Assembly: GCF_008039615.1 (NCBI RefSeq)
Contig: NZ_VDUZ01000056.1
Span: 1-55,891 of the forward strand
DNA from: Vineibacter terrae
GTDB lineage: Bacteria; Pseudomonadota; Alphaproteobacteria; Reyranellales; Reyranellaceae
DNA: 55,891 bases
Reading direction: 5' to 3'
The notes beneath the pieces were generated by a model. It did not search any database, was not told where the DNA came from, and saw only the letters and a list, made by a program, of their open reading frames with translations. Below are positions 3,604-17,356 of the stretch, in pieces. Every line of letters starts with the position of its first letter. Within the stretch, counting starts at the first letter, position 1. The position numbers and the translations under genes were made by a program.

Positions 3604-3628
3604 GGAACCCGCCCGCGCCAAGAACGTT
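3604..3628 (+). promoter_or_regulatory. Predicted EcfG general-stress promoter
   Basis: GGAAC at 3604-3608, 16 nt spacer, CGTT at 3625-3628, an exact match to the EcfG consensus. It would transcribe the winged-helix-like gene at 3777 with a leader of about 140 nt. Confidence 0.7.
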
Positions 3629-3685
3629 CTCGCCGCAACCTTGCGTTCCTTCCTTTCTCTCCCCCAAGCGGATCGCAGGGCCAGG

Positions 3686-3719
3686 CCGGGAGCATGGACT
3701 GCGCGGAGTATGCTCCCGG
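3686..3719 (+). other. Hairpin in the leader of the 3777 gene
   Basis: A perfect 10 bp stem CCGGGAGCAT/ATGCTCCCGG with a 14 nt loop, between the predicted EcfG promoter and the gene it serves. It has no U-tract, so a leader structure is more likely than a terminator. Confidence 0.45.
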
Positions 3720-3776
3720 CCGCCAGGCAAGGGATGGATGCGAAGACGCATCCGGCGAAGATGCATGTGGCAGGAT

Positions 3777-4082
3777 ATGAACCAGATCGACCGTCCGCTC
3801 GCGATCCGACTGTCCGAGGTCGAAGGCCAGATCCTGGATGTGATGGACGAACGTGCCAGCGGCCCGGAGCGCAGTATCGCGCTCGGCGCGCTCGACACGG
3901 CCATGGATGCGCGCGGCTATTCGGGCAGGGCCGTGCTGCGCGCCGTCGAGTCGCTCATCGGCAAGGGCGTGCTGGGTCGCGCGGGCTCGGGATATCTGCA
4001 GCGCCTGGCTGACCCTCCGACCGCCGCCATGCGCCGGCGTCGGCCGGCGCCGCGGCGGCCGCGCCGCAACACCGGCCTGTAG
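3777..4082 (+). CDS. Small winged-helix-like protein, paralogue 1
   Basis: A 101-residue protein starting MNQIDRPLAIRL. The core (EVEGQILDVMDERASG, then MDARGYSGRAVLRAVESLIGKGVL) looks like a winged-helix fold, and the tail is Arg/Pro-rich and basic. A clear paralogue lies at 16214-16546 (EVQNAILDVFDERRS, then MDRRGYGGRLVTRAIEGL). The leader carries an exact EcfG promoter motif. ATG 3777 is chosen because it aligns with the paralogue's beginning. DNA binding is inferred from the fold impression and basic tail. Confidence 0.7.
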   Translation: MNQIDRPLAIRLSEVEGQILDVMDERASGPERSIALGALDTAMDARGYSGRAVLRAVESLIGKGVLGRAGSGYLQRLADPPTAAMRRRRPAPRRPRRNTGL

Positions 4083-4148
4083 CGGCCCTCATTCCTTGGC
4101 GTACTTGAATCACGTCGTGGACTGGAAGACTGAGAGCACCGGCACGCG

Positions 4149-4322
4149 TCAGAACACGGCCTGGCCGACGGCCAGCGCGATGATCACCACGGCGATCGCC
4201 AGGATCAGGAACAGCACGAACAGGAACTTGGCGATGCGCGCGGCAGCCTCGGAAATGCCGGTGAAGCCGAGCGCGCCGGCGATCAGCGAGATGACGAAAG
4301 CGATGAGGGCCCATTTCAGCAT
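4149..4322 (-). CDS. DUF1328 small membrane protein (YtjA family)
   Basis: A 57-residue, very hydrophobic protein starting [20 protein letters not shown], with a second hydrophobic stretch ([20 protein letters not shown]), so two membrane helices. Length and the [14 protein letters not shown] linker match DUF1328. An exact EcfG promoter lies 41 bp upstream. Family members are typically stress- or stationary-phase-associated; the molecular function is unknown. Confidence 0.88.
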
Positions 4323-4362
4323 GGTGGACGCATCCTGCGGCTTGCGGCTTCTGTGGCGATGC

Positions 4363-4387
4363 AACGCGCCCTGCATGGCTTCGTTCC
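4363..4387 (-). promoter_or_regulatory. Predicted EcfG general-stress promoter
   Basis: On the minus strand, GGAAC (4387-4383), 16 nt, CGTT (4366-4363). It points at the DUF1328 gene starting at 4322, with a leader of about 35 nt. Confidence 0.75.
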
Positions 4388-4421
4388 ACGCGCCGCAACC
4401 GCAGAGCGGTGCGCCGGCGAT

Positions 4422-4447
4422 GAAACTTTCCCCGGACATGTCGCGTT
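4422..4447 (+). promoter_or_regulatory. Possible EcfG-like promoter
   Basis: GAAAC at 4422-4426 (one mismatch to GGAAC), 17 nt, CGTT at 4444-4447, about 30 bp before the 4476 gene. Weaker than the other sites. Confidence 0.4.
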
Positions 4448-4475
4448 GATTCCCGAGAACGCAGACGAGGAAGCC

Positions 4476-4685
4476 ATGTCCAATCCTTCTCGACCCGCGC
4501 GACCCGCGTCGCCGCCGCCCAGGCCCGCCGACACGCCGCCGCCGAAGATCAAGGATCCACCGCAGCCGCCACAAGGCGGCGATCGTCCCGGCGAGACGCC
4601 GGTGGAGCTGCCGCCGCGCGATCCGGCATTGCGCAAGATCGGCCCTGAGGACGAGGACCGCTGGCGGCGCGACGACGAGCGCTAA
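4476..4685 (+). CDS. Pro-rich small hypothetical protein
   Basis: A 69-residue, Pro- and charge-rich, probably disordered protein ([18 protein letters not shown], then [21 protein letters not shown]). It is divergent from the DUF1328 gene. No domain is recognised; the compact spacing to the next gene (45 bp) suggests co-expression with it. Confidence 0.55.
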
Positions 4686-4730
4686 CGGCCTCGGGAACAC
4701 CACGAACGCAACGGATCAATGGAGGCGACC

Positions 4731-5015
4731 ATGGCGCGCAAGCAGAAGAAGCTCGACAAGGCGCTGACCGAATCATTCCCCGCGAGCGATCCGGCGGCGA
4801 TCTTGCAGCCCGCGCCGGCAAATGACCTGCGCACGTCGGATGCCAAGGCCGACATGGATCACATCGACATCGACGACGAGCAGGAGGTGCGTTTCTGGGC
4901 CCAGGAGCTGGCGGTCGACGTCGCGCGCATCAAGGAAGCGGTCGACGCCGTCGGCAACAAGGTCGAGCCGGTGCGCCGCTATCTGAAGGCGGAGACGGTC
5001 GGAGGCCGATCATGA
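4731..5015 (+). CDS. DUF3606-domain protein
   Basis: A 94-residue protein. The N-terminus has the LDKALTESFPASDP motif often seen in small alphaproteobacterial proteins. The C-terminal half (HIDIDDEQEVRFWAQEL, then RIKEAVDAVGNKVEPVRRYL) matches DUF3606. ATG 4731 is preferred over ATG 4719 because GGAGG sits 5 nt before it. The stop region overlaps the ATG of the next gene by 4 nt, so the two are translationally coupled. Function unknown; probably stress-related by context. Confidence 0.8.
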   Translation: MARKQKKLDKALTESFPASDPAAILQPAPANDLRTSDAKADMDHIDIDDEQEVRFWAQELAVDVARIKEAVDAVGNKVEPVRRYLKAETVGGRS

Positions 5016-5338
5016 GTCGCAGCCGCACGTTCATCGCGGCGCTGGTCGCCGGCATCATCGGCCTGGGCGTGGCGCAGGCCGGCGCCGAGGACTGGCGCCA
5101 CCAGGACGGCCGCTACTGGGACTGGCGCGACCGCAACCACGACGGCCGCATCGACCGGCGCGATGGCCCGCCGCGCGGCTACTATCCGGCCGAGCGCTAC
5201 CACGACCGCCGGTCGACGACCTATCGGCCCGAAGGCTCGTGCCGTTTCCAGACGCGTCGCGGCGTGATCACCGGCTACAAGCCCGTGGGCAAGGACCGCT
5301 GCTGCATCGAGACCCGCAACGGTCCGTCCTGCCAGTAG
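5012..5338 (+). CDS. Secreted protein with the GKDRCCIETRNGPSCQ tail
   Basis: A 108-residue protein with an N-terminal signal peptide (SRSRTFIAALVAGIIGLGV, cleavage likely after AQAGA). A Trp/Tyr/Asp/Arg-rich middle includes an EF-hand-like DRNHDGRIDRRDG. The extreme C-terminus, GKDRCCIETRNGPSCQ, is identical to the mature end of the 43-residue peptide at 16587-16718. The start overlaps the upstream stop (ATGA). Likely periplasmic with a disulphide-rich tail; no function known. Confidence 0.75.
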   Translation: MSRSRTFIAALVAGIIGLGVAQAGAEDWRHQDGRYWDWRDRNHDGRIDRRDGPPRGYYPAERYHDRRSTTYRPEGSCRFQTRRGVITGYKPVGKDRCCIETRNGPSCQ

Positions 5339-5380
5339 CCGGCTGCTTTCGCCCAAGGCGAGAGATCTGCAGATCTGAGC

Positions 5381-5414
5381 GCGAGGGATCCAGGCACCGT
5401 CCTGGATCCCTCGC
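5381..5414. terminator. Hairpin, probable terminator
   Basis: A perfect 14 bp stem GCGAGGGATCCAGG/CCTGGATCCCTCGC with a 6 nt loop, 43 bp after the secreted-protein stop. No U-tract is visible, so termination is inferred from position. Confidence 0.5.
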
Positions 5415-5571
5415 CGCGTTGCGGATGACCTGACGATGACAGGGTTCTGAAGACCGCTCGACCCTTGACGCTGGCGCTGTCGTGCTGCCCCATACCCGCT
5501 CGCGTAGCTTGACAGGGACAAGAGGCAGGTGCGCAGGAAGCCCGATCGGGCGACAGGGAGGGGAGGTTGCC

Positions 5572-5991
5572 ATGCCATCCATGACCGACACGGCCAAGGC
5601 GTTCTTCGATGCGTGCGAGACCGGCAAGGGCTGGGAGGTATGCAGGGCGTACTGCAGGCCCGACGCGACCTTCTCGGCGCAGGCCGAGCCGCTGACCGAC
5701 GTGCACATGCTGCAGCAATATGCCGAGTGGATGAGGGGCATGCTGATCGTGCTGCCGGATGGCAGCTACCATGTGAAGTCCTTCGCCGCTGACAACGAGC
5801 GCAACAATGTCTGCGTGTACGCGGTGTTCTCGGCCTCGCACACGGGGCCGGGCGGGCCGGTGCCCCCGACAGGCCGCAAGACCGACACGGACTACGTCTA
5901 CGTGATGGAATTCGACGGCGGCAAGATCCGGCACATGACCAAGATCTGGCATGCCGGATGGGCCATGCGCGAGCTCGGCTGGGCCGGCTGA
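5572..5991 (+). CDS. SnoaL-like / NTF2-fold protein
   Basis: A 139-residue protein of the SnoaL-like cone-fold superfamily: DTAKAFFDACETGKGWEVC at the N-terminus, then the typical FSAQAEPLTDVHMLQQYAEW, and a C-terminal DYVYVMEFDGGKIRHMTKIW, which is characteristic of the family. ATG 5572 follows a strong GGGAGG. Such proteins are isomerases, cyclases or binding proteins; the specific activity cannot be read from sequence. Confidence 0.8.
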   Translation: MPSMTDTAKAFFDACETGKGWEVCRAYCRPDATFSAQAEPLTDVHMLQQYAEWMRGMLIVLPDGSYHVKSFAADNERNNVCVYAVFSASHTGPGGPVPPTGRKTDTDYVYVMEFDGGKIRHMTKIWHAGWAMRELGWAG

Positions 5992-6162
5992 GGCGCTCGC
6001 CCATAGGCGCCAGCCTTGACGCACGATTGTGCGGACGGGCGGCTCCTGCCGCGCTCTTCGTCTTGTCGCGGCAATACCATGAGCGCGCCCGGAGCCGCGC
6101 GGTCCGGCAGACGCCGCCGAGACATGAGCGGGCCTGAGGCCCGCGATCCGAGTGACCCCAGG

Positions 6163-6999
6163 TCATCGCCGCACGGCGATCGCGACCAGGCGCCGGCCCT
6201 CGCGGCGGATGCCGTCGCGGCTGGCGATTGCCTCCAGGTCGTGCTCGATCGCGGCGCGCGCCGAAGGCCGCAGCGCCTCGGGCAGATGGCCGAGGAAATT
6301 GCCGAACGAGCTTGCCTCGGCGAAGCGGATGGCGGCCTCGGCCGTGTCATAGGTCTGCACGACCGGCTGCACGGCGATCCTGGTCGGCGTGAAGCCCGCG
6401 GCCTCGAGCAGGTCGTGCATCTCCTGCTCGCTGACCCGGTAGGTGATCTGGGCCCGGGCGCGCGGATGCTCGCGAAAGGGCGGCCGTGACAGCACCTGCG
6501 CCGCCACCTCGTGCAGCGGCGATACGCGGTCCTTCAGGCTGGTGCCGATGCCCAGGCGGCCGCCCGGCCGCAGGACGCGCGCGAGCTGGCGCAGCGGCCC
6601 GGCCTTCTCCGGCAGCCAGTGGAACACGGCGTTGAGGCAGGCGACATCGAAGCCGCCGTCGGGCAGGTCGTCGAGGTCGTAGGCGTTGCCGACGCGGAAC
6701 ACGAGATTGGCTTGCGTCTTGGCCTGCGCCAGCTCGATGCGCAGCGGCAGGGGATCGAGCCCCAGGACGTGGCCGCGGGCCCCGACCAGGCCGGCGATAT
6801 GCTGCGCCAGCAGGCCGGTGCCGCAGCCGAGATCCAGCACGCGCTCGCCGGCGCCGATCGCAAGCTCCGCCACCAGGCGCTGGCCGGAGCGGAACTGGCG
6901 CTCGGCGCTGATGCGCTCGTAGTCGTCGGCCAGGGCGCGCGTGTCCTCGGTCAGCAGCGGTGCCGCCGGCTCGTCGGTGCCTGTGCTCGCTTCATCCAT
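6163..6999 (-). CDS. Class I SAM-dependent methyltransferase
   Basis: A 278-residue protein. Motif I is VLDLGCGTGLLAQHIAG (SAM binding), with an acidic end of strand 2 at HVLGLDPLPLRIELA, FDVACLNAVFHWLPEKAGPL as motif II/III, and VLRPGGRLGIGTS as the post-motif. The C-terminal half includes EMHDLLEAAGFTPTRI. ATG 6999 is chosen; upstream open frame is an antisense shadow. It belongs to the UbiE/ArsM-like group, but the substrate is unknown. Transcribed divergently from the LLM oxidoreductase at 7132. Confidence 0.88.
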   Translation of the reverse strand: MDEASTGTDEPAAPLLTEDTRALADDYERISAERQFRSGQRLVAELAIGAGERVLDLGCGTGLLAQHIAGLVGARGHVLGLDPLPLRIELAQAKTQANLVFRVGNAYDLDDLPDGGFDVACLNAVFHWLPEKAGPLRQLARVLRPGGRLGIGTSLKDRVSPLHEVAAQVLSRPPFREHPRARAQITYRVSEQEMHDLLEAAGFTPTRIAVQPVVQTYDTAEAAIRFAEASSFGNFLGHLPEALRPSARAAIEHDLEAIASRDGIRREGRRLVAIAVRR

Positions 7000-7131
7000 G
7001 TCACGCTCCGGCCTTTGACCATTGTTGACCCGCCGCGCGGAAGTCTGCGATGAAATCGGGGCGTAAGCAAAGCAGACGGCAGCATCAAGAACCTGACGGC
7101 GCCGCCGCTCGGGGAATGGAGGAACCACAGC

Positions 7132-8001
7132 ATGAAGATCGGCGTCTTCTCCACGTTCATGTCGCCGCTGGCGACGCCTGCGATGATCCGCGATTTCGGC
7201 CGCCGCGCCGAAGGCATGGGACTCGAGTCGATCTGGATGGGCGAGCACGTGGCGCTGTTCGACAAGAACACCTACGGCTATCCCGGCTCGAAGGACGGGC
7301 GCATCCCCGTGCCCGAGGGCGGCGGCATGCTCGATGTCACCGCCACCTTCGGCTTCCTGGCGGCCGCGACCAGCAAGCTGCGGTTCGGCACCGGCGTCGC
7401 GCTGGTGCCGCAGCGCAACCCGATCTACACCGCCAAGGAAATGTGCACGCTCGACTGGCTGAGCGACGGGCGCATCGATTTCGGCATCGGTGTCGGCTGG
7501 AACAAGGAGGAGGTCGAGGCCTGCGGCTATCGCTGGGAGGATCGCGGCGCGCGCTGCGACGAGTTCCTCGAGGTGATGCGCCGCTTGTGGACCGAGCCGG
7601 TGGTCGACTTCGCGGGCAAGTGGGTGAAGTTCGAGACCATGCGGCTGGACCCCAAGCCGATCCAGAAGCCGCATGTGCCGATCATCGTCGGCGGCTATGC
7701 CGAGGCGGCCATGCGCCGCGCCGTGCGCTTCGGCGCCGGCTGGTATGGCTTCAATCGCGATCCGGCGGGCACGAAGGAGATGCTGGCGCAGCTCGACGCG
7801 GCGTTCGCGAAGGCCGGCCGCAAGCGCGGCAAGGACTTCCAGATCATCATCACGCCGCCGGTATCGATGTCGGTCGATGCCATGCAGGCCTATGCCGAGG
7901 CCGGGGTCGACCGCCTGATCGTGAACCTCGGCAGCCAGCGGCCGGAGAAGGTCGACCCGCGCATGAAGGAGATCGAGACGCTGGTGAAGATGGCGGCGTG
8001 A
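7132..8001 (+). CDS. LLM-class F420-dependent oxidoreductase
   Basis: A 289-residue luciferase-like (alpha/beta-barrel) oxidoreductase. It starts MKIGVFSTFMSPLATP after GGAGGAACC. Family markers are GLESIWMGEHV, LRFGTGVALVPQRNP, TLDWLSDGRIDFGIGVGWNKEE and PIIVGGYAEAAMRRAVRFGAGWYG. Such enzymes use F420 or FMN to oxidise small organics. No F420 biosynthesis genes lie in the window, so cofactor and substrate remain open. Confidence 0.88.
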   Translation: MKIGVFSTFMSPLATPAMIRDFGRRAEGMGLESIWMGEHVALFDKNTYGYPGSKDGRIPVPEGGGMLDVTATFGFLAAATSKLRFGTGVALVPQRNPIYTAKEMCTLDWLSDGRIDFGIGVGWNKEEVEACGYRWEDRGARCDEFLEVMRRLWTEPVVDFAGKWVKFETMRLDPKPIQKPHVPIIVGGYAEAAMRRAVRFGAGWYGFNRDPAGTKEMLAQLDAAFAKAGRKRGKDFQIIITPPVSMSVDAMQAYAEAGVDRLIVNLGSQRPEKVDPRMKEIETLVKMAA

Positions 8002-8110
8002 GCAGCTGGCGCGCTCGCGCCACGACGCCGTCATTCCCGGGCATGGCGGGCTTGCCCGCGATGCTCGGGGCGACAGATCCCGCAGCCGCCACGCCGTCGC
8101 TGGAGCCAGG

Positions 8111-9253
8111 ATGACGGATTGCAGTCCGGCCTTCTCGCTCATGACGGGCGGCCCGTTCTACCGCCTGCTCCTGCGGCTGAGCCTGGTGCGGCCGCCGCTG
8201 GGGCTCCTGTGGCGGCGCGTCGCTGCCGTTCTGGCGATCGCGTGGCTGCCGCTGCCGATCCTGGCCGCGATCGCCGACGGCCACGCGACCACGTCGACGC
8301 TGTCCTTGTTCCTCGCCAATGTCGAGGGCCATGTCCGCCTGCTGGTCGTGCTGCCGCTGCTGCTGGCGGCGGAGATCCCCTGCCATCGACGCCTGGGCGT
8401 GGCTGTAGAGCAGTTCCTGTCACGCGGGCTGGTGGCTGATGCCGACCACAGCCGGTTTGACGCGGCCGTGGCAGCGGCGCTGCGCCGGCGCGATGCGTTG
8501 CTCCCGGAGCTGGTCCTGCTTGCCCTGGTCTATCTCAGCAGCGATTGGCTCTGGCATTGGCGCGACACGCCCGGGGGAGAGGTATGGTTCGCCGTCGTCA
8601 GCAACGGCGGCAGCCACCCGACAGTGCCCGGTGTGTGGTTCGTGCTGGTCAGCGTGCCGCTCTTCCAGTTCGTGCTGCTGCGCTGGTACTGGCGGCAGCT
8701 GATCTGGTTCCACCTGCTATGGCGCATCTCGCGCCTCGAGCTGAGCTTGCCGGCGGCACATCCGGACGCCGCGGCCGGCCTGGGCTTCCTGGCCGACAGC
8801 GCCCGTGCCTTCGTCCTGGTGCTGCTGGCGCACGGCGCGCTGCTGGCAGGACGGGTCGTCGATCACGTGACCGCCACCGGCGCCGACCTCACGGCCTTCA
8901 AGGGCGATGTCGCGGTGATGGTGGTGGTCCTGCTGGCCCTGAACCTGGGGCCGCTGTGCTTCTTCTCGCCGCAGCTCGCGGAGGCCAGGCGCCAGGGGCT
9001 GCTGCGCTATGGGCAGCGCGCGGCGCGGAACATTCCGCGTGTCTCGAATGGCGTCGATCCAGATGGTATCGATCACGCGCTGGCCACGGTCACGAGCAAC
9101 TACGACCGGGTCCAGAAGATTCGCATGATGCCTTTCAGCCTGGCATTCGCCGGGCGGCTGGCCGTCATCATTCTGCTGCCATTGATTCCGGTCGCCGGCG
9201 CGGCCCTGCCGGTCGGCACATTGGCGATGCGCCTGGCGAAGATCATCCTGTGA
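8111..9253 (+). CDS. Multi-pass integral membrane protein
   Basis: A 380-residue protein with about six hydrophobic segments (for example VAAVLAIAWLPLPILAAIA, LLVVLPLLLAAEIP, FVLVLLAHGALLAG, VMVVVLLALNLGPLCF and LAVIILLPLIPVAGAAL), and soluble loops rich in Arg. No enzymatic motif is recognised. The 3' end overlaps the convergent 9243-9611 gene by 11 bp. Confidence 0.75.
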   Translation: MTDCSPAFSLMTGGPFYRLLLRLSLVRPPLGLLWRRVAAVLAIAWLPLPILAAIADGHATTSTLSLFLANVEGHVRLLVVLPLLLAAEIPCHRRLGVAVEQFLSRGLVADADHSRFDAAVAAALRRRDALLPELVLLALVYLSSDWLWHWRDTPGGEVWFAVVSNGGSHPTVPGVWFVLVSVPLFQFVLLRWYWRQLIWFHLLWRISRLELSLPAAHPDAAAGLGFLADSARAFVLVLLAHGALLAGRVVDHVTATGADLTAFKGDVAVMVVVLLALNLGPLCFFSPQLAEARRQGLLRYGQRAARNIPRVSNGVDPDGIDHALATVTSNYDRVQKIRMMPFSLAFAGRLAVIILLPLIPVAGAALPVGTLAMRLAKIIL

Positions 9254-9611
9254 CCGTGCGCACGCGCTGCGGATCTGCGTCCAGCCGCTGATCGCTGCGA
9301 TCCGGGCCTTGCAGGCGGCGCATTGCTGCCAGCACGCGCGCGACCTGCTGCTCGGCGATGCAGATCGATTGCATCGCCTCGCTTTCCTCTCCCAGTGACC
9401 GCGTAATGGGAAGGCTGGCGCAGCGGCCCAGGCGGTGCAGGCTCGCCTTGGCCGTCTGGATCTCGCGCAAGGCGAGCTGGATCATCCCTGCATCCCAGGC
9501 GGCGCGCCGATCGAGGTTGCGCACAGGGCCTTCATGCTCCTGACAGCGCTCGCGCACGTGCTCTGCCAGATCGTACGGCAACAAAACGTCGGATGAATCG
9601 TCTCGCGTCAT
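9243..9611 (-). CDS. Hypothetical protein
   Basis: A 122-residue soluble, helical protein (DLAEHVRERCQEHEGPVRNLDRR, wrapped around conserved-looking Cys/His, then AEQQVARVLAAMRRLQGPD). An exact EcfG promoter motif lies at 9623-9647, very close to ATG 9611, which would leave almost no leader; a downstream TTG may be the true start. Function unknown. Confidence 0.5.
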   Translation of the reverse strand: MTRDDSSDVLLPYDLAEHVRERCQEHEGPVRNLDRRAAWDAGMIQLALREIQTAKASLHRLGRCASLPITRSLGEESEAMQSICIAEQQVARVLAAMRRLQGPDRSDQRLDADPQRVRTVTG

Positions 9612-9622
9612 CGCATCCGGAC

Positions 9623-9647
9623 AACGCCGCGTCACTCCCGTAGTTCC
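9623..9647 (-). promoter_or_regulatory. Predicted EcfG general-stress promoter
   Basis: On the minus strand, GGAAC (9647-9643), 16 nt, CGTT (9626-9623). It is divergent from the plus-strand EcfG promoter at 9669, the two -35 elements being 21 bp apart. Confidence 0.65.
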
Positions 9648-9668
9648 AGGCATGCAAGGCCGCGCGCG

Positions 9669-9694
9669 GGAACAAACCACGAGGCCGGCCCGTT
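9669..9694 (+). promoter_or_regulatory. Predicted EcfG general-stress promoter
   Basis: GGAAC at 9669-9673, 17 nt, CGTT at 9691-9694 followed by T. It would transcribe the secreted protein at 9787 with a leader of about 85 nt. Confidence 0.7.
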
Positions 9695-9786
9695 TGCGTG
9701 CCAGCGCAGCACCAGGGTCTTCCCTGGCGGCGTCCCCAGGGCGTTGGCAGCGGCTGCTTCCGGATATTCAACATGACGTGGCTACA

Positions 9787-10122
9787 ATGCGCTTAACAGG
9801 CAAGCTCGCCGTTGCCTTCGTGGTGCTCACAGGCCCGGCAATGGCTCACGGGTTGCATGACTGGATACGGCAAGGGAATTTCCGCGATGCTGCCGGCAAC
9901 AGTTGCTGCTCGGAGCTCGACTGTCGGATGATCCCGGTCAATTCCGGCGATGTGGTGGAGCTGGAGAATGGCGATTTCCGCTATGTGCCCACCGGCGAAG
10001 TGATCCCGCGCAACGAGACGCGTCTGTCGCCGGACGACAACTACTGGCGCTGCTATTGGCACCAGAATGGCCAGGAGCTGACGCGCAAGATGTGCTTCTG
10101 GCGGCCGGTGCGCGACAGCTGA
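9787..10122 (+). CDS. Small secreted Cys-containing protein
   Basis: A 111-residue protein with a signal peptide (RLTGKLAVAFVVLTGPAMAHG). The mature part has NSCCSELDCRMIPV and DNYWRCYWHQNG ending in KMCFWRP, so five cysteines that could pair in the periplasm. The open frame continues upstream, but ATG 9787 gives a clean signal sequence. EcfG control is predicted from the 9669 site. No enzymatic motif. Confidence 0.75.
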   Translation: MRLTGKLAVAFVVLTGPAMAHGLHDWIRQGNFRDAAGNSCCSELDCRMIPVNSGDVVELENGDFRYVPTGEVIPRNETRLSPDDNYWRCYWHQNGQELTRKMCFWRPVRDS

Positions 10123-10149
10123 GGCCGGTGTCGGCCGTCGCGCGAGTCG

Positions 10150-10184
10150 CGACTGTCATCCCGCGTAGCGAGGGATGACAGTCG
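10150..10184. terminator. Bidirectional terminator-like hairpin
   Basis: A perfect 13 bp stem CGACTGTCATCCC/GGGATGACAGTCG with a 9 nt loop, between the convergent genes ending at 10122 and 10209. The sequence belongs to the GTCATCCC..GGGATGAC palindrome family that also occurs at 41974 and 54396. Confidence 0.6.
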
Positions 10185-10208
10185 TATCGAACTCGGCAGT
10201 TCCCGGCC

Positions 10209-10367
10209 CTAGTATCTCGAATACGCGGGCGCCGGTACGACGACCGTTGTTGGCGGCGGCTCGGCCGGCTTGACGTACACGGTGCGCTCGGTGTGGCTGC
10301 AGCCGGCGATGGCCGCCGACATCAGCGTCGGCAGAACGATCAGGCACAACATGCGTGACAGGCTCAT
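10209..10367 (-). CDS. Small lipoprotein
   Basis: A 52-residue protein with a lipoprotein signal: MSLSRMLCLIVLPTLMSAA followed by IAGC, so Cys22-23 is the likely lipidation site. The mature part is short and Pro-rich (VKPAEPPPTTVVVPAP). A good AGGAGAG site lies before ATG 10367, and a perfect EcfG promoter lies 25 bp further up. It resembles the small EcfG-controlled lipoproteins common in alphaproteobacteria; role unknown. Confidence 0.75.
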   Translation of the reverse strand: MSLSRMLCLIVLPTLMSAAIAGCSHTERTVYVKPAEPPPTTVVVPAPAYSRY

Positions 10368-10391
10368 GGCTTCTCTCCTGGTCGGACAAGA

Positions 10392-10416
10392 AACGGCGCG
10401 CGGCCTGCAAGGTTCC
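10392..10416 (-). promoter_or_regulatory. Predicted EcfG general-stress promoter
   Basis: On the minus strand, GGAAC (10416-10412), 16 nt, CGTT (10395-10392) followed by T. It gives an ~18 nt leader to the lipoprotein gene. Divergent from the ligD-side promoter at 10432. Confidence 0.75.
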
Positions 10417-10431
10417 TGACGCCCGGTGACG

Positions 10432-10456
10432 GGAACTGTCACCTTGGGCACGCGTT
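10432..10456 (+). promoter_or_regulatory. Predicted EcfG promoter of the ligD transcript
   Basis: GGAAC at 10432-10436, 16 nt, CGTT at 10453-10456. The start site would be near 10463, ahead of a short ORF (10490) and ligD. Confidence 0.75.
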
Positions 10457-10489: not shown

Positions 10490-10621
10490 ATGACCCGCAA
10501 TGTCGGGCCGGTCGTATCGGCTGGCGTCATTGGCCTGTGCATCGCCATGAAGGCGCTCGTATGCTGCTCGTGGGACACCGCGTGCAGCGTGGCCCGCTTG
10601 AAGCAATCGCGCACAACCTAG
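10490..10621 (+). CDS. Possible 43-residue membrane peptide
   Basis: A short open frame beginning MTRNVGPVVSAGVIGLCIAM with one hydrophobic stretch and a Cys-rich middle (VCCSWDTACS), ending in TAG. A purine-rich GACGAGGAA sits 8-10 nt before the ATG, and the predicted EcfG start site is about 27 nt upstream. It could be a leader peptide or a real small protein cotranscribed with ligD; the length is close to chance expectation, so support is modest. Confidence 0.35.
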   Translation: MTRNVGPVVSAGVIGLCIAMKALVCCSWDTACSVARLKQSRTT

Positions 10622-10696
10622 AGACTGCGGAGAGCTGGAACCGGTCCCGCGGGCGCCTCGTTGACCGTCATCGCCGAAGCCGGTCGGGAGACGCGA

Positions 10697-12931
10697 TTGG
10701 CAAATCGTTCCCTTGCACGGTATCGCGCCAAGCGCGACTTCACCCGCACCGCGGAGCCCAGCGGCAAGACCGGCGTGGTGCCCTCGGCGCGGCTTCGCTT
10801 CGTCGTGCAGAAGCATGCCGCGAGCCGGCTCCACTACGATTTCCGCCTCGAGCTCGATGGTGTCTTCAAATCGTGGGCTGTCACGCGTGGCCCGTCGCTC
10901 GATCCCCACGACAAGCGGCTGGCGGTCGAGGTCGAGGATCATCCGCTGGCCTATGGCGACTTCGAGGGCACGATCCCGAAAGGAGAGTACGGTGGTGGCA
11001 CCGTGCTCCTCTGGGATCGCGGGTATTGGACTCCTGAGCCGGGAGCTTCGCCGCAGGCGGCGTTGCGCGCCGGGAGCCTGAAGTTCGCCCTCGACGGCGA
11101 GAAGCTCGCAGGCGGCTGGGCTCTGGTGCGGTTCCGGCGCGACGACGGCAAGCGCAACAACTGGCTGCTGATCAAGCATCGCGACCAGGCAGCGCAAGAT
11201 GGCCGGGGCGAGGCTGTGCTCGAGAATGACCGTTCCGTCGCCTCGGGGCGCGACATGGAGCAGATCACGGCCGGCGAGGGCAGGGGGCCGGCCCCGTTCA
11301 TGACGGCCGGGCGGCGGCGTGGCAAGGCCGGCGCGGTCTGGCCCTCCAATCGCCGCAAGGATGAAGACGACGATGCCGCACCGGCCGCGCCGCGGCCCGG
11401 CGTGAAGCTGCCGCGCGGGCGCATGCCCGATTTCATCGCGCCGCAATTGTGCCAGCTCGTCGAGCGTCCGCCCGAAGCCGCCGGCTGGGGGCATGAGGTA
11501 AAGCTGGACGGCTATCGCGTGCAGGCGCGCATCCTTGACGGCGAGGCCACGGTCAAGACGCGCAAGGGCCTGGATTGGTCGGACAAGTTCCCACAGATCG
11601 CCAAGGCGGCCGGCACGCTGCCGGATGCGATCATCGACGGCGAGGTGGTGGCGCTCGACGGCAACGGCGCGCCGGATTTCGCCGCGCTGCAGGCCGCGCT
11701 GTCGGAGCGCGACACGCGCAACTTGACGTTCTTCGCCTTCGACCTGCTGGTCGAAGGCGAGGAGGATCTGCGCCGCCTGCCGCTCGCCGAACGCAAGGCG
11801 CGCCTGAAGGTGCTGCTGGAGGCCAATGCCCGGAAGCTGGGACCCTCTTTCCGCTATGTCGAGCACCTCGAAAGCGCAGGCGATGCGGTGCTACGCTCGG
11901 CCTGTCGCATGTCGCTGGAGGGCATCGTGTCGAAGCGGCTGGATGCGCCCTATCGCTCGGGCCGCAGCGGCGCCTGGACCAAGGCGAAGTGCCGCGCCGG
12001 GCGCGAGGTGGCCGTCGTGATGGGCGTGCCGATCTCCAACCCCGACAAGAAGCTGTGGCCCGATGTCGATGGCGAGCCGGCCACGAAGCTGGAGCTGGCG
12101 CGTTACTACGAGGCTGTCGGCGGCTGGATGATGCCGCACCTGGAAGGGCGGCCGTGCTCGATCGTGCGCGCGCCGGACGGCATCGCCGGCGAGCAGTTCT
12201 TCCAGCGCCATGCCGGCCCCGGCACCTCGAGCCTGATCGCGCAGGCGCGCATCTCCGGTGACCGCAAGCCGTACCTGCAGATCGATCGGATCCAAGGCCT
12301 TGCGGCCATGGCGCAGGTCGCGGCGCTGGAGCTGCATCCCTGGAACAACCGGCCCGGCGATCCGATGCTGCCCGGCCGGCTGATCTTCGACCTCGATCCG
12401 GCGCCGGATGTGGGCTTCGAGGCGGTGATCGCGGCGGCGCGCGAGCTGAAGCGCCGGTTGGAGGATCTCGGGCTGGTGCCGTTCTGCAAGACCACCGGCG
12501 GCAAGGGCCTGCATGTGGTGACGCCGCTGACGCAGTCGCGCCGCAGCGGGCCGGACTGGAAGGCAGCGAAAGCATTCGCGCGCGCGCTTTGCGAACGGAT
12601 GGCTGCCGACAGTCCCGATCGCTACGTCATGACCATGGCCAAGAAGGCGCGCACGGGCCGGATCTTCCTGGACTACCTGCGCAACGACCGGTTCGCCACC
12701 GCCGTGGCGCCGCTGTCGCCGCGCGCCCGGCCCGGGGCCACGGTGTCGATGCCTCTGACCTGGAGCCAGGTGCGCGCCGGGCTTGACCCGCGGCGCTACA
12801 CCCTGCGCAGCGCGCCGGCCCTGATCGCGCGCAGCAAGGCATGGGCAGACTATGCCGACAGCGAGCGGCCTCTCGCACCAGCGATTGCGGCATTGACGGC
12901 TCCTACATCGCGCCGCCGGCGCGCCGCATGA
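10697..12931 (+). CDS. ligD: DNA ligase D lacking a recognisable OB-fold
   Basis: Bacterial end-joining ligase/polymerase, 744 residues from TTG 10697 (GGGAG 7 nt upstream; TTG 10661 is an alternative). Order: phosphoesterase domain at about 35-170 ([28 protein letters not shown]); ligase nucleotidyltransferase domain with adenylated Lys269 in VKLDGYR and [18 protein letters not shown]; then a primase-polymerase domain with IFDLDPAPD (Asp565/567) and [13 protein letters not shown]. The ligase domain runs straight from [12 protein letters not shown] (about residue 430) into the polymerase start [14 protein letters not shown]. The ~100-residue OB-fold expected between them in LigD is absent, with no frameshift. 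Ku is not in the window. EcfG control is predicted. Confidence 0.92.
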
Positions 12932-12976
12932 AGCTGTCATCCCCAGAGGCGTGGCGACATGGCCCGGACGGGAAGG

Positions 12977-13014
12977 TCACACGCCGGGGGCGCGCCACTC
13001 CGTGGCGCGTCATG
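12977..13014. repeat. Short hairpin repeat, copy 1
   Basis: CACACGCCGGGGG followed by CGCGCCACTCCGTGGCGCG, whose arms pair around a TCC loop, then TCATG. Other copies are at 19914, 45204 and, inverted, 45331. Together with ordinary spacer it fills the ligD-YihY gap. Confidence 0.8.
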
Positions 13015-13084
13015 GTAACGTTTCAGGCGATTCATCCCGCTGACCACGGGATGGTGAATCGGACGACGGAGGGTGACGCCATCC

Positions 13085-13957
13085 ATGCGTGCAGGCTGGG
13101 TATTGCTGAGGAGCACGATCGACGGCTTCGTCGAGGACGAGATGCTGAGCCGCGGGGCGGCGATCGCCTACTACAGCGTGTTCGCGCTGGCGCCCGTGCT
13201 GATCATCGCCATCGCGGTCGCCGGCCTGGTCTTCGGGCCGGACGCGGCGCAGGGGGCGATCGTCGCCGAGCTCAGCGGGCTGATGGGCGAGAGGAGCGCC
13301 GATGTGCTGCAGTCGGTGGTGCGCAGCGCCAGCGATCCCGGCAGCGGCACCTGGGCGACGGTGATCGGCATCGGTGCGCTGATGGTGACGGCCAGCGGCG
13401 TCTTCAGCGAGATGCAGGCGGCGCTCAACCGGGTGTGGAAAGCCAAGCCGCAGACGTCGGTCCTCTCGCGCCTCGTGCGCGCGCGGCTCGTCAGCCTGGG
13501 GCTGGTGCTGGCCCTGGGCTTCCTGATGACCATCTCGCTGGTGGTGAACGCCGGCCTGTCGGCGATCGACACCTATGTGAAAGGCTTCGTTCCCGGCGGG
13601 CACGTGCTGCTGCAGGTCGTCACCTTCGTGGCGTCCTTCGCCCTGATCTCCCTGCTGTTCGCCGCCATCTACAAGGCGCTGCCCGACACGCAGATCCCGT
13701 GGCGCGACGTGACCATGGGCGCCATCGTCACGGCGCTGCTGATGACCCTCGGCAAGTCCCTGATCGCCTTCTATCTCGGCAGCAGCAGCGTGGCGTCGGC
13801 CTACGGCGCCGCCGGTGCGCTGGCGCTGATGCTGGTCTGGATCTTCTATTCGGCGCAGATCTTCCTGCTGGGCGCCGAGTTCACGCGCGCCTATGCCGAG
13901 CTGCGCGGTGACCGCCGGCGACCGGCATCGGCTCGCGTCAGCGGCGCCGACGGTTGA
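13085..13957 (+). CDS. YihY/BrkB-family membrane protein
   Basis: A 290-residue integral membrane protein with about six helices. Family marks are DEMLSRGAAIAYYSVFALAP near the N-terminus, GTWATVIGIGALMVTASGVF, ALPDTQIPWRDVTMGAIVTA, and AYGAAGALALMLVWIFYSAQ with IFLLGAEFTRAYA at the end. ATG 13085 follows GGAGGG at 12 nt; GTG 13073 is too close to it. Family function is unresolved despite the old ribonuclease BN label. Its end overlaps the convergent DUF883-like gene by 20 bp. Confidence 0.88.
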   Translation: MRAGWVLLRSTIDGFVEDEMLSRGAAIAYYSVFALAPVLIIAIAVAGLVFGPDAAQGAIVAELSGLMGERSADVLQSVVRSASDPGSGTWATVIGIGALMVTASGVFSEMQAALNRVWKAKPQTSVLSRLVRARLVSLGLVLALGFLMTISLVVNAGLSAIDTYVKGFVPGGHVLLQVVTFVASFALISLLFAAIYKALPDTQIPWRDVTMGAIVTALLMTLGKSLIAFYLGSSSVASAYGAAGALALMLVWIFYSAQIFLLGAEFTRAYAELRGDRRRPASARVSGADG

Positions 13958-14312
13958 GATGGGCGCTGAGCCAGCCCAGCCCGAACGCGATCGAGACGGC
14001 GCAGAAAGGGCGGGTGCGTATGCCGTCCTCCAGCGCCGCGACGTCCTCGGCCAGGGCGTCGCGGGTGGATCGCAGCTGCTCGCCAACGGCTGAGTCGGCC
14101 GCCCGGATTGCGTCGTCGGCGAGGTGGTCGACCAGCGCCGAGCCCAGGGACAGGAACGCGCGGCCGCTGTCCTCGATGGCATGCTTGGCATCGGCGCCAC
14201 CCGACGCCAGCGACTGCTCCATCGTCGTCAGGATGCGTTGCATCCGGCGGCGCAGCTCCTGCGCTTCACGCTGCATCGACTGTGCCGTCCGCCTGGTTTG
14301 CCAGCTCACCAT
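13938..14312 (-). CDS. DUF883/ElaB-like membrane-anchored protein
   Basis: A 124-residue protein: a long helical, coiled-coil-like region (MQREAQELRRRMQRILTTME, then LRSTRDALAEDVAALEDGIR) followed by a C-terminal membrane segment (PFCAVSIAFGLGWLSAHL) and a basic RRRR tail. This layout is that of ElaB/DUF883 proteins, which anchor to the inner membrane and in E. coli bind ribosomes. A palindromic EcfG motif lies 45 bp upstream. Confidence 0.7.
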   Translation of the reverse strand: MVSWQTRRTAQSMQREAQELRRRMQRILTTMEQSLASGGADAKHAIEDSGRAFLSLGSALVDHLADDAIRAADSAVGEQLRSTRDALAEDVAALEDGIRTRPFCAVSIAFGLGWLSAHLNRRRR

Positions 14313-14356
14313 GGTGCTGCTCCGTCCCGTTCGCGGCGTCGTTGGACGCCGATGCT

Positions 14357-14384
14357 GGAACGCCCGGCCGGAGCCGGGCGTTCC
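14357..14384 (-). promoter_or_regulatory. Palindromic EcfG promoter motif
   Basis: GGAACGCCCGGC and its complement around a 4 nt centre. Read on either strand it gives GGAAC-N17-CGTT. The minus-strand reading fits the DUF883-like gene (leader about 40 nt). It could equally fold as a hairpin, so promoter function is less certain than at the other sites. Confidence 0.5.
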
Positions 14385-14472
14385 GCGTGGACAAGCGTTC
14401 CCGCCGGCCGACGTCGCCTTCGAAACGGGGTGCCGCGCGCGCTCGGCGCGCACGCAATCCGGTGGCATGGGA

Positions 14473-14727
14473 TCAGGAGACAACGGCATCCGGGCCGCTT
14501 CCGGCGGCGGTCTCGTCATGCGGATCCGTACCGGCAGCGCTTCCGTTTGCGTTGGCAGGCGTCTTGCCGGGCGGCGCGGCATTTGCCGTGCGCGCCGACC
14601 CGGGCATCACGCTGTCCACCACGGCGACGACATCGGCAATATCGGCGCATGCCCGTGGGCTGTCGCCATCGACGGTGACGGCGAACCCGTGACCCTCACG
14701 CTTCACGTCGATTCGGTGGCCGCTCAT
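14473..14727 (-). CDS. Hypothetical protein
   Basis: An 84-residue protein. The first 40 residues (MSGHRIDVKREGHGFAVTVD, then SPRACADIADVVAVVDSVM) look folded; the rest is Ala/Gly/Pro-rich and probably disordered. No family recognised. The 270 bp upstream (14728-14997) shows only a weak EcfG-like motif (GGAAC at 14828-14824 with CGCT instead of CGTT) and no gene. Confidence 0.5.
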   Translation of the reverse strand: MSGHRIDVKREGHGFAVTVDGDSPRACADIADVVAVVDSVMPGSARTANAAPPGKTPANANGSAAGTDPHDETAAGSGPDAVVS

Positions 14728-14997
14728 GACTCCAATCCCCGACAAGCACCGGCGGTTGCCGCCGGCCATCGCGCCTGGCCGTGGCGGCCAGGATCACAGG
14801 CAAAGCGCCGGAAGGACGACTTGGTTCCCGCGCCTGAAAGAATTTTCCAATCGACCAGGTCCGCCCATCGCCTGCTTCAGCCAACCAACTTCATCCCCGG
14901 TGATGATAGGCCTTGAACGGCGCGGTAATCGGGATGAAGCTTCCACGGTCGGTGCAAGCACCGACGCCACGGATGTGCTCCTTTGCGGTGTCGTGCC

Positions 14998-15345
14998 ATG
15001 GGCAGACGAACCTTCGAGACACCGGCCCCTTGGGGCATCGGGCCTGGACCGGCGAAGCTCTACTCGATCGACGGCGCGCTGCATGCCGTCACCATGTGGC
15101 TGGACCTTACGCCGGTCCGGCCCAACACACGCAGCGAGCGCGAGATGATGCTGACCTTGCGCGACGTGCTGTCGGCTATTCCTGCCAGCGCGATCGAGGC
15201 GGATCTCATGTCTGCCAAGCGCGCGATCAAGGGCATGGTGAAGTACGCCAACAGCAGCGAAGCCTCCGTCGGGCGCCTCCTGGCCGCCACCGCGCCGCTG
15301 CGGCCGATCGCACGGCTTTCCGCGACGCGGGCGAAGGGCGATTGA
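14998..15345 (+). CDS. Hypothetical protein
   Basis: A 115-residue protein beginning MGRRTFETPAPWGIGPGPAK. The middle (SERE, then MMLTLRDVLSAIPASAIEAD and KRAIKGMVKYANSSEASVG) is helical. ATG 14998 is the likely start; 14983 is in frame upstream. No family recognised. Confidence 0.5.
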   Translation: MGRRTFETPAPWGIGPGPAKLYSIDGALHAVTMWLDLTPVRPNTRSEREMMLTLRDVLSAIPASAIEADLMSAKRAIKGMVKYANSSEASVGRLLAATAPLRPIARLSATRAKGD

Positions 15346-15441
15346 GGGCGCCTGTGATCACGTGAGGGCAGGGCGCGGCGGGCCTTGGCGCGGCAGGGCG
15401 GCGCCCCTCACTATCATGGCAAGCCATCGCGGGGGCCTGCC

Positions 15442-15708
15442 ATGTCGAGTGGTCAGCCAGGCAAGTACTTCGACAAGCCGGTCCGCATGCGGGTCGGCGA
15501 CGGGGTCGGCTTGATCCGAAACGTCGAGGAAGCGCTCGATTGGATCGAGCATCGACCGGCCGAGGTGAAGATGCCGTTCGTGGACGCGGCAGCGGCGCTG
15601 CGCCGGGCGCGCAGCTCCGGGACCGCCGCCGACGCGGCAGCGGCGCGGTCGGCGTTCGAGGCGGCGCTGGCTGCCGCCGGGCTGCTTGCGCATCGTTCGC
15701 CGGAGTGA
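15442..15708 (+). CDS. DUF982-family protein
   Basis: An 88-residue protein. Typical DUF982 features are FDKPVRMRVGDGVGLIRNVE followed by EALDWIEHRPAE and a helical Ala-rich second half. Proteins of this size and family are common in rhizobia-like alphaproteobacteria; function unknown. Confidence 0.75.
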   Translation: MSSGQPGKYFDKPVRMRVGDGVGLIRNVEEALDWIEHRPAEVKMPFVDAAAALRRARSSGTAADAAAARSAFEAALAAAGLLAHRSPE

Positions 15709-15753
15709 TCGCGCCTCGGTCCACGCCGCCCCGAAGTGAAGGATGTGTGCGCC

Positions 15754-16176
15754 ATGCCGCTGCCGACGTGGTCCAGGACAGGTCTTGCCGTGGTGGCGCT
15801 GGCGGTCGTGTCGGCCGGCGGCGCGCGGGCGCAGGAGAGCTATCTGTGCACCGAGGAGCAGTCCACCGGCTTCCTCTTCGACAAGGTCCGGCGCGCCTGG
15901 CAGCCCTCCGTGCTGGTCGCGGACAGGAAGCTGGTCGTGCATCTGGACCAGGGTGCGACGCGGACCTGGTTCGTCTCGGAAGGCGGGCGTCGCACGTCTT
16001 CGTATTGGTGCCCCAGCGGTTGGGTCAACGACGAGATGAGCTGCACCGGCATCGCCGGCTCGTTCTGGATGAACCGCAAGACCATGCGCTTCCTCTATGT
16101 CTACAAATGGGGCTACCTCGACGGCGACTCGCCCGACACTCCCAACATCACCATCGGGCGCTGCTCGCCCGGCTAG
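15754..16176 (+). CDS. Secreted hypothetical protein
   Basis: A 140-residue protein with a signal peptide (PLPTWSRTGLAVVALAVVSAGG, cleavage near ARA-QE). The mature domain has YLCTEEQSTGFLFDKVRRAW, then SYWCPSGW and MSCTGIAGSFWMN with a terminal GRCSPG, so four cysteines. It resembles a family of conserved secreted proteins of unknown function in alphaproteobacteria. ATG 15754 rather than GTG 15736 gives the cleaner signal peptide. Confidence 0.7.
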   Translation: MPLPTWSRTGLAVVALAVVSAGGARAQESYLCTEEQSTGFLFDKVRRAWQPSVLVADRKLVVHLDQGATRTWFVSEGGRRTSSYWCPSGWVNDEMSCTGIAGSFWMNRKTMRFLYVYKWGYLDGDSPDTPNITIGRCSPG

Positions 16177-16213
16177 CGCACGTCGGACTGAACGCAGCGA
16201 GTCCCTTTCTCTC

Positions 16214-16546
16214 CTACACCTCCAGCGCCGTTCGCCGCTTCAGGCGGCTGCGTCGCCCGGTGCGCCGCGTCTTCCTGGCCGCCGCCGCGGTCGGCGGTGC
16301 GGCGCACAGCTCGAGATCGTTGGGCCCCAGGCGGCGCAGGCGGCCGGCGCGGCAAAGGCCCTCGATAGCGCGCGTCACCAGGCGTCCGCCATAGCCGCGC
16401 CGGTCCATGGCGAGCTGGATCTCAGCCATATGCAGGGCCGATCCCGGCCGGCTGCGGCGCTCATCGAACACGTCCAGGATCGCGTTCTGCACCTCCAGCA
16501 GCCGCAGCGCCACGGGCAGGGCGGTTGGCTTGGGCTTCGATGTCAC
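16214..16546 (-). CDS. Small winged-helix-like protein, paralogue 2
   Basis: A 110-residue protein starting at GTG 16546. The core EVQNAILDVFDERRS and MDRRGYGGRLVTRAIEGL aligns along its length with the 3777-4082 protein, and both end in a basic Arg/Thr-rich tail. It follows the Cys-peptide gene by 40 bp on the same strand, so the EcfG promoter at 16750 probably drives both. The start is inferred from the paralogue; no good ribosome binding site is seen. Confidence 0.65.
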   Translation of the reverse strand: MTSKPKPTALPVALRLLEVQNAILDVFDERRSRPGSALHMAEIQLAMDRRGYGGRLVTRAIEGLCRAGRLRRLGPNDLELCAAPPTAAAARKTRRTGRRSRLKRRTALEV

Positions 16547-16586
16547 TGGCCGGCCTGGAAGCGGGGAGGTGCGCTGCGTGCAGCCG

Positions 16587-16718
16587 TCACTGGCAGGACG
16601 GCCCGTTGCGCGTCTCGATGCAGCAGCGGTCCTTGCCCCAGCCTTCGGCGCTGGCTTGCGCGGCGAAGCCCAGGCCCAGCGTGCCGGCAACCAGCATGGC
16701 GATGACCATCCGCGGCAT
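16587..16718 (-). CDS. 43-residue secreted Cys-rich peptide
   Basis: A short gene absent from long-ORF views. The signal peptide is PRMVIAMLVAGTLGLGFAAQ with cleavage near ASA-E; the mature product is only about 20 residues and ends GKDRCCIETRNGPSCQ, identical to the tail of the protein at 5012-5338. GGAAGGA lies 7 nt before ATG 16718 and a perfect EcfG promoter 25 nt above that. Three cysteines suggest a disulphide plus one free thiol. Possibly a periplasmic stress peptide; function unknown. Confidence 0.75.
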   Translation of the reverse strand: MPRMVIAMLVAGTLGLGFAAQASAEGWGKDRCCIETRNGPSCQ

Positions 16719-16749
16719 CTCGATATCCTTCCAGCCTTGCTGGAAAGGA

Positions 16750-16775
16750 AACGTCACGCCGGATGAGCGAGTTCC
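16750..16775 (-). promoter_or_regulatory. Predicted EcfG general-stress promoter
   Basis: On the minus strand, GGAAC (16775-16771), 17 nt, CGTT (16753-16750) followed by T. It points at the Cys-peptide gene (leader about 25 nt). Confidence 0.75.
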
Positions 16776-16808
16776 GCGATCGCGCGGCTGCCGGCCGCCG
16801 ATGCCGGC

Positions 16809-17216
16809 TCACGCCCGGCGCGCGGCTGCGGCGGACAGGCGCCCGGTGTCCAGCATCCGCCGGCAGGCGTGCTTGATGTCGGCAGGCTGATATGGCTTGT
16901 CGAAGAACACGCTGCCCGCGACCCGGCGCGTAGAGCTGCTGCTGGAACGGCCCGAGGCATAGATGACGGGCATCATGCGGTCGGCCCGGCGCGCGGCCAC
17001 CGCGACGTCCCAGCCGGACACGCGGCCGCCCAGGCGGATATCCGTGAACACGACGTCGATCGCGGCGTCGCGCGCCAGCGTGTCGACCGCCTGCTCGCCG
17101 CTGGGCACCGCGACGACACGCCAGCCCATGTCCTCGAAATACATGGCGACGACCTCGCGCACGGCCCATTCGTCTTCGACGATCAGTATCGTCAGTGGCA
17201 ACTGTTCATCACGCAT
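16809..17216 (-). CDS. Stand-alone response-regulator receiver
   Basis: A 135-residue CheY-like receiver. Acidic pocket LIVEDE (residues 11-16), phosphoacceptor Asp59 in VVFTDIRLGG, and Lys107 in FFDKPYQ are all present; no output domain. It is divergent from the receiver-kinase pair at 17409, across a 192 bp shared region, and may be a second target of that kinase. No EcfG motif is seen on its own side. Confidence 0.88.
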   Translation of the reverse strand: MRDEQLPLTILIVEDEWAVREVVAMYFEDMGWRVVAVPSGEQAVDTLARDAAIDVVFTDIRLGGRVSGWDVAVAARRADRMMPVIYASGRSSSSSTRRVAGSVFFDKPYQPADIKHACRRMLDTGRLSAAAARRA

Positions 17217-17331
17217 GGTGGAGCTCGTGAACGCCGGTGCTTCGAACTGCGAGGGCGCCTCCAAGGCACCCGTTCTTCGTCGCCGATGCCAACGCCGGGG
17301 GCGGACGCCAGTTGCGGCACGGCATCGCCCG

Positions 17332-17356
17332 GGAACCTTTCGGCCAGGATGGCGTT
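17332..17356 (+). promoter_or_regulatory. Predicted EcfG promoter of the receiver/kinase operon
   Basis: GGAAC at 17332-17336, 16 nt, CGTT at 17353-17356. Leader of about 46 nt to the receiver gene at 17409. Confidence 0.7.

Follow-up and report, generated by a model that had tools for sequence, protein, structure and literature searches.

The window analysed here is a 55,891-nucleotide stretch of the Vineibacter terrae genome (contig NZ_VDUZ01000056.1), and between its positions 3604 and 17356 lies an island of mostly small genes preceded by matches to GGAAC-N16/17-CGTT, the promoter motif of EcfG, the sigma factor of the general stress response (GSR). The features of the island and of the units adjoining it are collected in Table 1. 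Pfam recognizes on it DUF1328, DUF3606, the LigD domains, BrkB/YihY, two receivers, and an HWE kinase. An original prediction, made from the sequence alone, had described a general-stress island of mostly undescribed small proteins, and Pfam indeed has no match for six (B, K, L, M, N, and W) of the ten genes that come first after the sites, with Q reaching only sub-threshold scores. ORF (open reading frame) D and the DUF3606 gene possibly form one operon, and in the translations the last 16 residues of protein F are identical to those of the peptide W.

Table 1. Positions in the window of the predicted promoters and of the genes on and next to the island
Feature	Position	Strand	Remarks
EcfG-type promoter (predicted), exact	3604-3628	+	136 nt upstream of gene B
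Gene B, undescribed putative winged-helix protein	3765-4082	+	no Pfam/NCBIfam match; paralogue of V
DUF1328 small membrane protein	4149-4322	-	Pfam PF07043, E 2.2e-12
EcfG-type promoter (predicted), exact	4363-4387	-	40 nt before DUF1328 gene
Near match GAAAC-N17-CGTT	4422-4447	+	28 nt before ORF D
ORF D, 69 aa, proline-rich	4476-4685	+	no Pfam family; followed by DUF3606 gene
DUF3606 protein	4719-5015	+	PF12244
Protein F, signal-like N-terminus	5012-5338	+	no Pfam match
ORF K, 122 aa	9243-9611	-	no Pfam family; hand-picked start
EcfG-type promoter (predicted), exact	9623-9647	-	11 nt before ORF K
EcfG-type promoter (predicted), exact	9669-9694	+	92 nt before ORF L
ORF L, 111 aa, apparently secreted	9787-10122	+	no family (Pfam, NCBIfam); hand-picked start
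ORF M, 52-aa putative lipoprotein	10209-10367	-	no Pfam family; hand-picked start
EcfG-type promoter (predicted), exact	10392-10416	-	24 nt before ORF M
EcfG-type promoter (predicted), exact	10432-10456	+	33 nt before ORF N
ORF N, 43 aa	10490-10621	+	no Pfam match; hand-picked start
EcfG-type promoter (predicted) of ligD, exact	10637-10662	+	34 nt before start
ligD	10697-12931	+	phosphoesterase, ligase adenylation, polymerase domains; OB-fold domain missing
Gene Q, DUF883/ElaB-like	13938-14312	-	hand-picked start
Palindrome, perfect 12-bp arms, exact EcfG motif on both strands	14357-14384		- strand copy (14359) 46 nt before Q
Gene V, second putative winged-helix paralogue	16214-16546	-	downstream of W
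W, 43-aa peptide	16587-16718	-	signal-like N-terminus, Cys-containing end; no Pfam match
EcfG-type promoter (predicted), exact	16750-16775	-	31 nt before W, 203 nt before winged-helix gene V
Response regulator X	16809-17216	-	Response_reg E 8.2e-14
GCAAC-N16-CGTT variant	17291-17315	-	74 nt before response regulator X
EcfG-type promoter (predicted), exact	17332-17356	+	52 nt upstream of Y
Response regulator Y, single domain, heading the HWE-kinase unit	17409-17825	+	Response_reg E 2.1e-9; hand-picked start
HWE histidine kinase with PAS	17822-19891	+	HWE_HK E 8.4e-28; Cache-like N-terminus below Pfam cut-off

The promoter motif in the island and across the genome

The window holds 11 exact matches to the motif, all of them inside these 13.8 kb, and the other 42 kb hold none. 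Because the matches at 14357 and 14359 are one palindrome read on both strands, the 11 matches amount to 10 distinct sites. Nine exact sites had been listed originally, every one of which is present, and two matches had been overlooked, at 10637-10662 (+) and 14357-14382 (+). The near match that had been reported at 4422 differs from the motif by one base, and the three divergent pairs that had been claimed are 4363/4422, 9623/9669, and 10392/10432. The claim that the sites stand shortly before start codons in the right direction was borne out for all ten, with a correctly oriented start 11-136 nt downstream when hand-picked starts are used. The starts of K, L, M, N, Q, and Y were our own choice; the gene caller does not report K, M, or N and uses other start codons for L, Q, and Y, so that several of the site-to-start distances rest on chosen starts. 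At 4361-4387 a GCAAC variant on the + strand (4361) overlaps the exact motif on the - strand, and one 27-bp element could thus serve two divergent genes.

Chance, or the composition of a G+C-rich window that yields functionless GGAAC/CGTT matches, is a highly improbable source of this cluster, even though 67 of 148 motif matches in the genome lie inside called genes, presumably by chance. Dinucleotide shuffles of the window (n = 100) gave a mean of 0.45 matches and a maximum of 2, and the reversed pattern occurs about 0.75 times per window length (from 117 in the 8.76-Mb genome). When the spacer in GGAAC-Nk-CGTT was varied from 0 to 40, the window contained six matches at k = 16, five at k = 17, and 0-2 elsewhere; the enrichment is limited to spacings 16 and 17. 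Together with the scan statistic given below and the footprints, these controls oppose chance for the island; what they rule out is a chance origin of the whole cluster, not of the single sites 14357/14359 and 9623.

A scan of the whole genome, which had been proposed as a check on the original prediction, placed the island as the densest 14 kb of the 8.76 Mb, with 11 matches against three in the next densest 14 kb, and random placement on one line of that length (n = 2000) never put more than six in 14 kb. It also found the matches over-represented in noncoding DNA: outside the window 70 of 137 are noncoding, compared with 19.3% of the fetched sequence (P 7e-17). The contexts cover 148 of the 149 places (one on contig C86 was left out), with genes called by a codon-usage script; as this caller overlooks small genes, the noncoding share of the sequence is overestimated and the test is conservative. 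Of the noncoding matches outside the window that have a called gene downstream (n = 67), 54 face the start of that gene and 13 its end, and a looser gene threshold places a start on the same strand within 260 nt of 45 of the 70. The signal is carried by the position and clustering of the sites and not by raw counts. Further motif-bearing genes in this genome encode CsbD, Cu/Zn superoxide dismutase, an encapsulated-ferritin-like protein, an iron permease, an MscS-type mechanosensitive channel, a Na/H exchanger with a Usp domain, an EgtB-like protein, and DUF3309. Twenty proteins were scanned, one of which (L192) is PhyR, included for non-promoter reasons, and another (L016) matched below the cut-off.

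Sites upstream of ligD, gene Q, and the winged-helix genes

The ligD gene had been thought to be driven by a stress promoter, and an exact site does lie directly upstream of it; this site, at 10637, is outside the nine originally listed. Of the 28 relatives that have any LigD match we compared 18, the best-scoring ones of the own family, and found within 300 nt upstream of ligD an exact site in 11 and a one-mismatch GCAAC site in three. Two of the 11 (L069 and L071), being identical in sequence, do not count independently. In the same ligD loci, 0.8% of random 300-nt stretches contain an exact match. In the congener G002, a topoisomerase IB gene is divergent from ligD and has an exact site of its own. 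The window's LigD gives no match to the OB-fold family PF04679, which is found in the congener G003 and whose region is aligned in G002; near window position 12017, residues 440 and 441 abut, in frame, at a 145-column gap relative to G002 and G003. A second, longer LigD-like gene is present on contig C4 of the same genome.

Gene Q scores 22 bits against NCBIfam PRK10132, for which the cut-off is 157, and its paralogue on contig C2 matches DUF883_C. The exact motif before Q is contained in the palindrome of Table 1, which could instead be a terminator or other hairpin and not a promoter, an alternative to which we give a real but minority chance. In its favor are the perfect arms, predicted to fold into a single strong hairpin, its position between the stop of gene R and the start of Q, and a full symmetry that is unique among the 81 noncoding matches of the genome. 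The palindrome is, however, close upstream of Q in the right direction, in the sequence read neither strand carries a T run after it, and ordinary exact sites occupy the same place elsewhere: 32 nt upstream of the C2 paralogue (L265) and 40-73 nt upstream in five of eight Q homologues of relatives (L260, L261, L262, L263, and L266). In another homologue (L259) a site stands upstream of the first gene of the operon. Symmetric bidirectional promoters (GGAACG...CGTTCC) were considered as a general class, the two boxes being partial mirror images, and rejected, there being no enrichment: full symmetry was seen in two of the 81 noncoding matches, which are both strands of this one palindrome, and in none of the 67 coding ones, and the only two such matches in the relatives' set both fall in L032, itself a locus of the same V. 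terrae genome.

Genes B and V, which are 46% identical, define a family for which the predicted structure has a helix-strand-helix-helix-strand-strand order (mean predicted local distance difference test score, 69), a topology that fits a winged helix. The best rows of a comparison with PDB structures are winged-helix domains, the best at E 5.8e-3 and none at E <= 0.001. A family search returned 10 matches in eight of 41 genomes, with the strong ones confined to the genus, and profile comparison linked the family to a short one of the sister genus (probability 95%, E 1.9e-8). Nine of the 10 matches have a GGAAC or GCAAC site upstream of the gene or its operon, compared with 1.0% of random 250-nt stretches. 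Eight of these sites lie within 250 nt, namely those of B and V themselves and of G002, G003, G005, G018, G019, and G022, where in G005, G018, and G022 the site is counted upstream of a small membrane gene called before the winged-helix gene; the ninth is 114 nt upstream of a partial match in G013, a third genus. The tenth match, a doubtful second one in G003 (L191), has no site and was not recovered by tblastn. From their predicted fold, B and V are probably secondary regulators with a DNA-binding role, and the family looks new. A strong hairpin is predicted at window 3690-3732, within the long leader that separates gene B from the 3604 promoter.

The PhyR-NepR-EcfG switch and a regulator-linked block

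The genome encodes PhyR, NepR, and EcfG-like sigma genes, all on contigs other than that of the window. NepR (26.2 bits against a Pfam cut-off of 25.7) is on contig C28, where two extracytoplasmic function (ECF) sigma genes adjoin it that are 60-72% identical to sigma genes at nepR loci of the sister genus. PhyR, with PhyR_sigma2, PhyR_sigma-like, and receiver domains, is on contig C26; a kinase follows it and, judged by eye, belongs to the HisKA2/HWE type. Contig C28 (L081, 11538-11765) also has an exact motif next to the ecfG genes. The sequence behind it resembles CsbD by eye and is divided over two frames, either as a broken gene or through a sequencing error. On the island itself, the HWE kinase had been taken to be driven by a stress promoter; an exact site does stand upstream of its unit, and the kinase is second in that operon, behind the receiver-domain gene Y. 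That Y and the kinase are placed under an EcfG-type promoter of their own suggests positive feedback.

Four sister-genus genomes (G005, G018, G019, and G022), picked for their winged-helix match, carry that gene 7.5-11 kb from nepR, in a block that has phyR, one or more ecfG genes, kinases, and CsbD-like genes near it; the comparison of the block covers these four genomes. A DUF1328 gene belongs to the block in G018 and G022, a lipoprotein gene to that in G005, G018, and G022, and ligD is in the same stretch in G022. ORF M was compared with that lipoprotein, and the short stretch of similarity gives no ground for calling them homologous. EgtB- and EgtD-type domains occur in genes next to the block in G018 and, by eye, in G005, G019, and G022. 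Within 11.6-16.2 kb the blocks contain eight (G005), nine (G018), five (G019), and seven (G022) GGAAC and GCAAC sites, and the rest of each fetched stretch contains no exact or GCAAC site, where the bounds between inside and outside were chosen after the sites had been seen; with the same bounds, eleven control -35 variants gave 0 or 1 each. The switch genes are inside such a cluster in the sister genus, and in V. terrae they are on other contigs.

Reading of the island and comparison with known systems

Given the noncoding enrichment, the rank of the island as top cluster, the presence of the switch genes, and the recurrence of sites before ligD and winged-helix genes, the proposal of EcfG promoters in a general-stress island is supported in silico, and we are confident that the island is a clustered part of the EcfG general-stress regulon, with ten predicted sigma-EcfG promoters and about ten transcription units. 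Its sites, their spacing, position, and conservation, the switch parts, and the co-location of homologous genes with switch genes in four relatives are direct observations; EcfG dependence, stress induction, feedback, and DNA binding by the winged-helix proteins are inferred.

Several observations weigh against this reading. Both nepR-linked ECF proteins fall below the NCBIfam equivalog cut-offs, so they are called EcfG by their linkage to nepR and their resemblance to the sister-genus genes. No GGAAC/GCAAC-N16/17-CGTT occurs within 400 nt upstream of the genome's own ecfG2, ecfG1, nepR, or phyR, autoregulation of GSR switch genes being usual (PMC8103513). On the island, four of the ten downstream ORFs (K, L, M, and N) are small with hand-picked starts, and the SnoaL, methyltransferase, LLM, and YihY genes lack any site at spacing 16-17, whether exact or with one mismatch. 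Elsewhere in the genome, 25 of the 70 noncoding matches outside the window have no called same-strand start within 260 nt. Among relatives, a site is missing within 300 nt upstream of ligD in four of 18, and two of the eight Q homologues (L264 and L267) have no GGAAC/GCAAC site, L264 having a GAAAC one. Finally, the raw genome-wide excess is small (149 forward matches versus 117 reversed) and is absent in G002 (165 versus 167) and G022 (73 versus 82); we therefore dropped it as evidence.

It is unlikely that the sites are read not by EcfG but by a different ECF sigma factor whose promoter preference overlaps with that of EcfG. The genome does contain additional ECF sigma genes (e.g. at C20:137451 and C85:20562), and Rhizobium etli is reported to have EcfG paralogues with separate targets (PMC8103513). 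The box sequence and spacing, however, are those of the published EcfG consensus (PMC7083833, PMC6599016, PMC4814048), and the predicted targets resemble known EcfG targets (PMC7083833, PMC6599016).

With EcfG as the reader of these sites, stress would activate HWE kinases, including the one encoded on the island with its receiver protein, and phosphate would pass to PhyR (contig C26). Phosphorylated PhyR would remove NepR from EcfG (contig C28), and EcfG-RNA polymerase would then recognize GGAAC/CGTT and transcribe the island units. The products would be small membrane and secreted proteins (DUF1328, DUF883-like, Cys peptides, and lipoprotein), two winged-helix proteins, and the LigD repair protein, and the receiver-kinase pair among them may feed back on the switch.

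Whether the clustering itself carries meaning is a separate matter. The promoters may be real and their grouping without function, stress genes having been gathered by duplication and drift, a view to which we assign somewhat less than an even chance. The paralogous pairs on the island (winged-helix B/V and peptides F/W) point to local duplication, homologous genes in G002 are spread over contigs C1, C12, and C34, and the V. terrae regulators are located away from the island. Yet some of the same gene kinds adjoin nepR-ecfG-phyR in the four sister-genus genomes, so the linkage recurs or was kept. We tentatively suggest, and hold slightly less probable still, that Reyranellaceae have a heritable stress super-locus grouping the sigma switch with many effectors, including a dedicated and so far undescribed family of winged-helix regulators as its second tier, of which locus the effector half in the lineage of the window would have become detached and grown by local duplication.

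Beyond the island, a dispersed repeat with CTTCCCCCGCTTGCGGGGGAAGG-type arms was noted by eye at about window 1149-1290, 1722-1867, and 20060-20220; two of its copies flank a DUF559 gene (1336-1707; PF04480). Positions 1973-2782 encode a member of the aminoglycoside/hydroxyurea kinase family (PF04655, E 1.6e-84). The window contains no tRNA genes, which were sought as island borders, and positions 1-22000 gave no match to known RNA families at gathering score. On contig C1 of the same genome (L271, 4080-13186) there is a second, looser stress cluster with Ku, two receivers, an HWE-like kinase, and three exact sites, in which a GCAAC site lies ∼93 nt upstream of the called Ku start. In the congener G002 (L270, contig C12, 3986-14567), five exact sites fall in 10.6 kb around HWE-kinase and receiver genes.

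Guilt by association needs tight clusters, and here it could be applied to the six of ten first genes that match no Pfam family. The island and its sister-genus counterpart provide a defined gene set and a candidate regulator of the second tier whose promoter is conserved in 9 of 10 matches, and they offer a test of whether selection keeps stress regulons together. The promoter type and most of the named gene kinds are already known; what looks new is how densely the sites are packed, together with the regulator-linked block and the winged-helix family. A literature search, to which subscription journals were mostly closed, found nothing joining Reyranella with EcfG, nor any EcfG target island.

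The LigD protein is like the bacterial nonhomologous end joining ligase LigD in having phosphoesterase, adenylation, and polymerase domains and is unlike the congener LigD in having no OB-fold domain (PF04679). In Methylobacterium extorquens, according to the available text of PMC4814048, none of the six ecfG genes is at the phyR locus and no EcfG-type promoter precedes ecfG; V. terrae likewise has scattered switch genes and no such promoter before ecfG, whereas a clustering of targets is not described for M. extorquens in that text. In Sphingopyxis, GGAAC and GCAAC are reported to be the two most frequent -35 boxes, and the EcfG regulon includes ku-ligD, which is reported to be under GSR control, mscS, and csbD (PMC7083833); that of Sphingomonas melonis includes Ku, topoisomerase IB, and a TIGR03440 protein (PMC6599016). 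The island resembles the PhyR-NepR-EcfG GSR of Sphingopyxis granuli and S. melonis in its boxes, spacing, switch proteins, and kinds of target (PMC7083833, PMC6599016, PMC8103513), and it differs from them in concentrating ten predicted promoters in 14 kb, in containing no switch gene, and in counting among its targets a winged-helix family that looks new.

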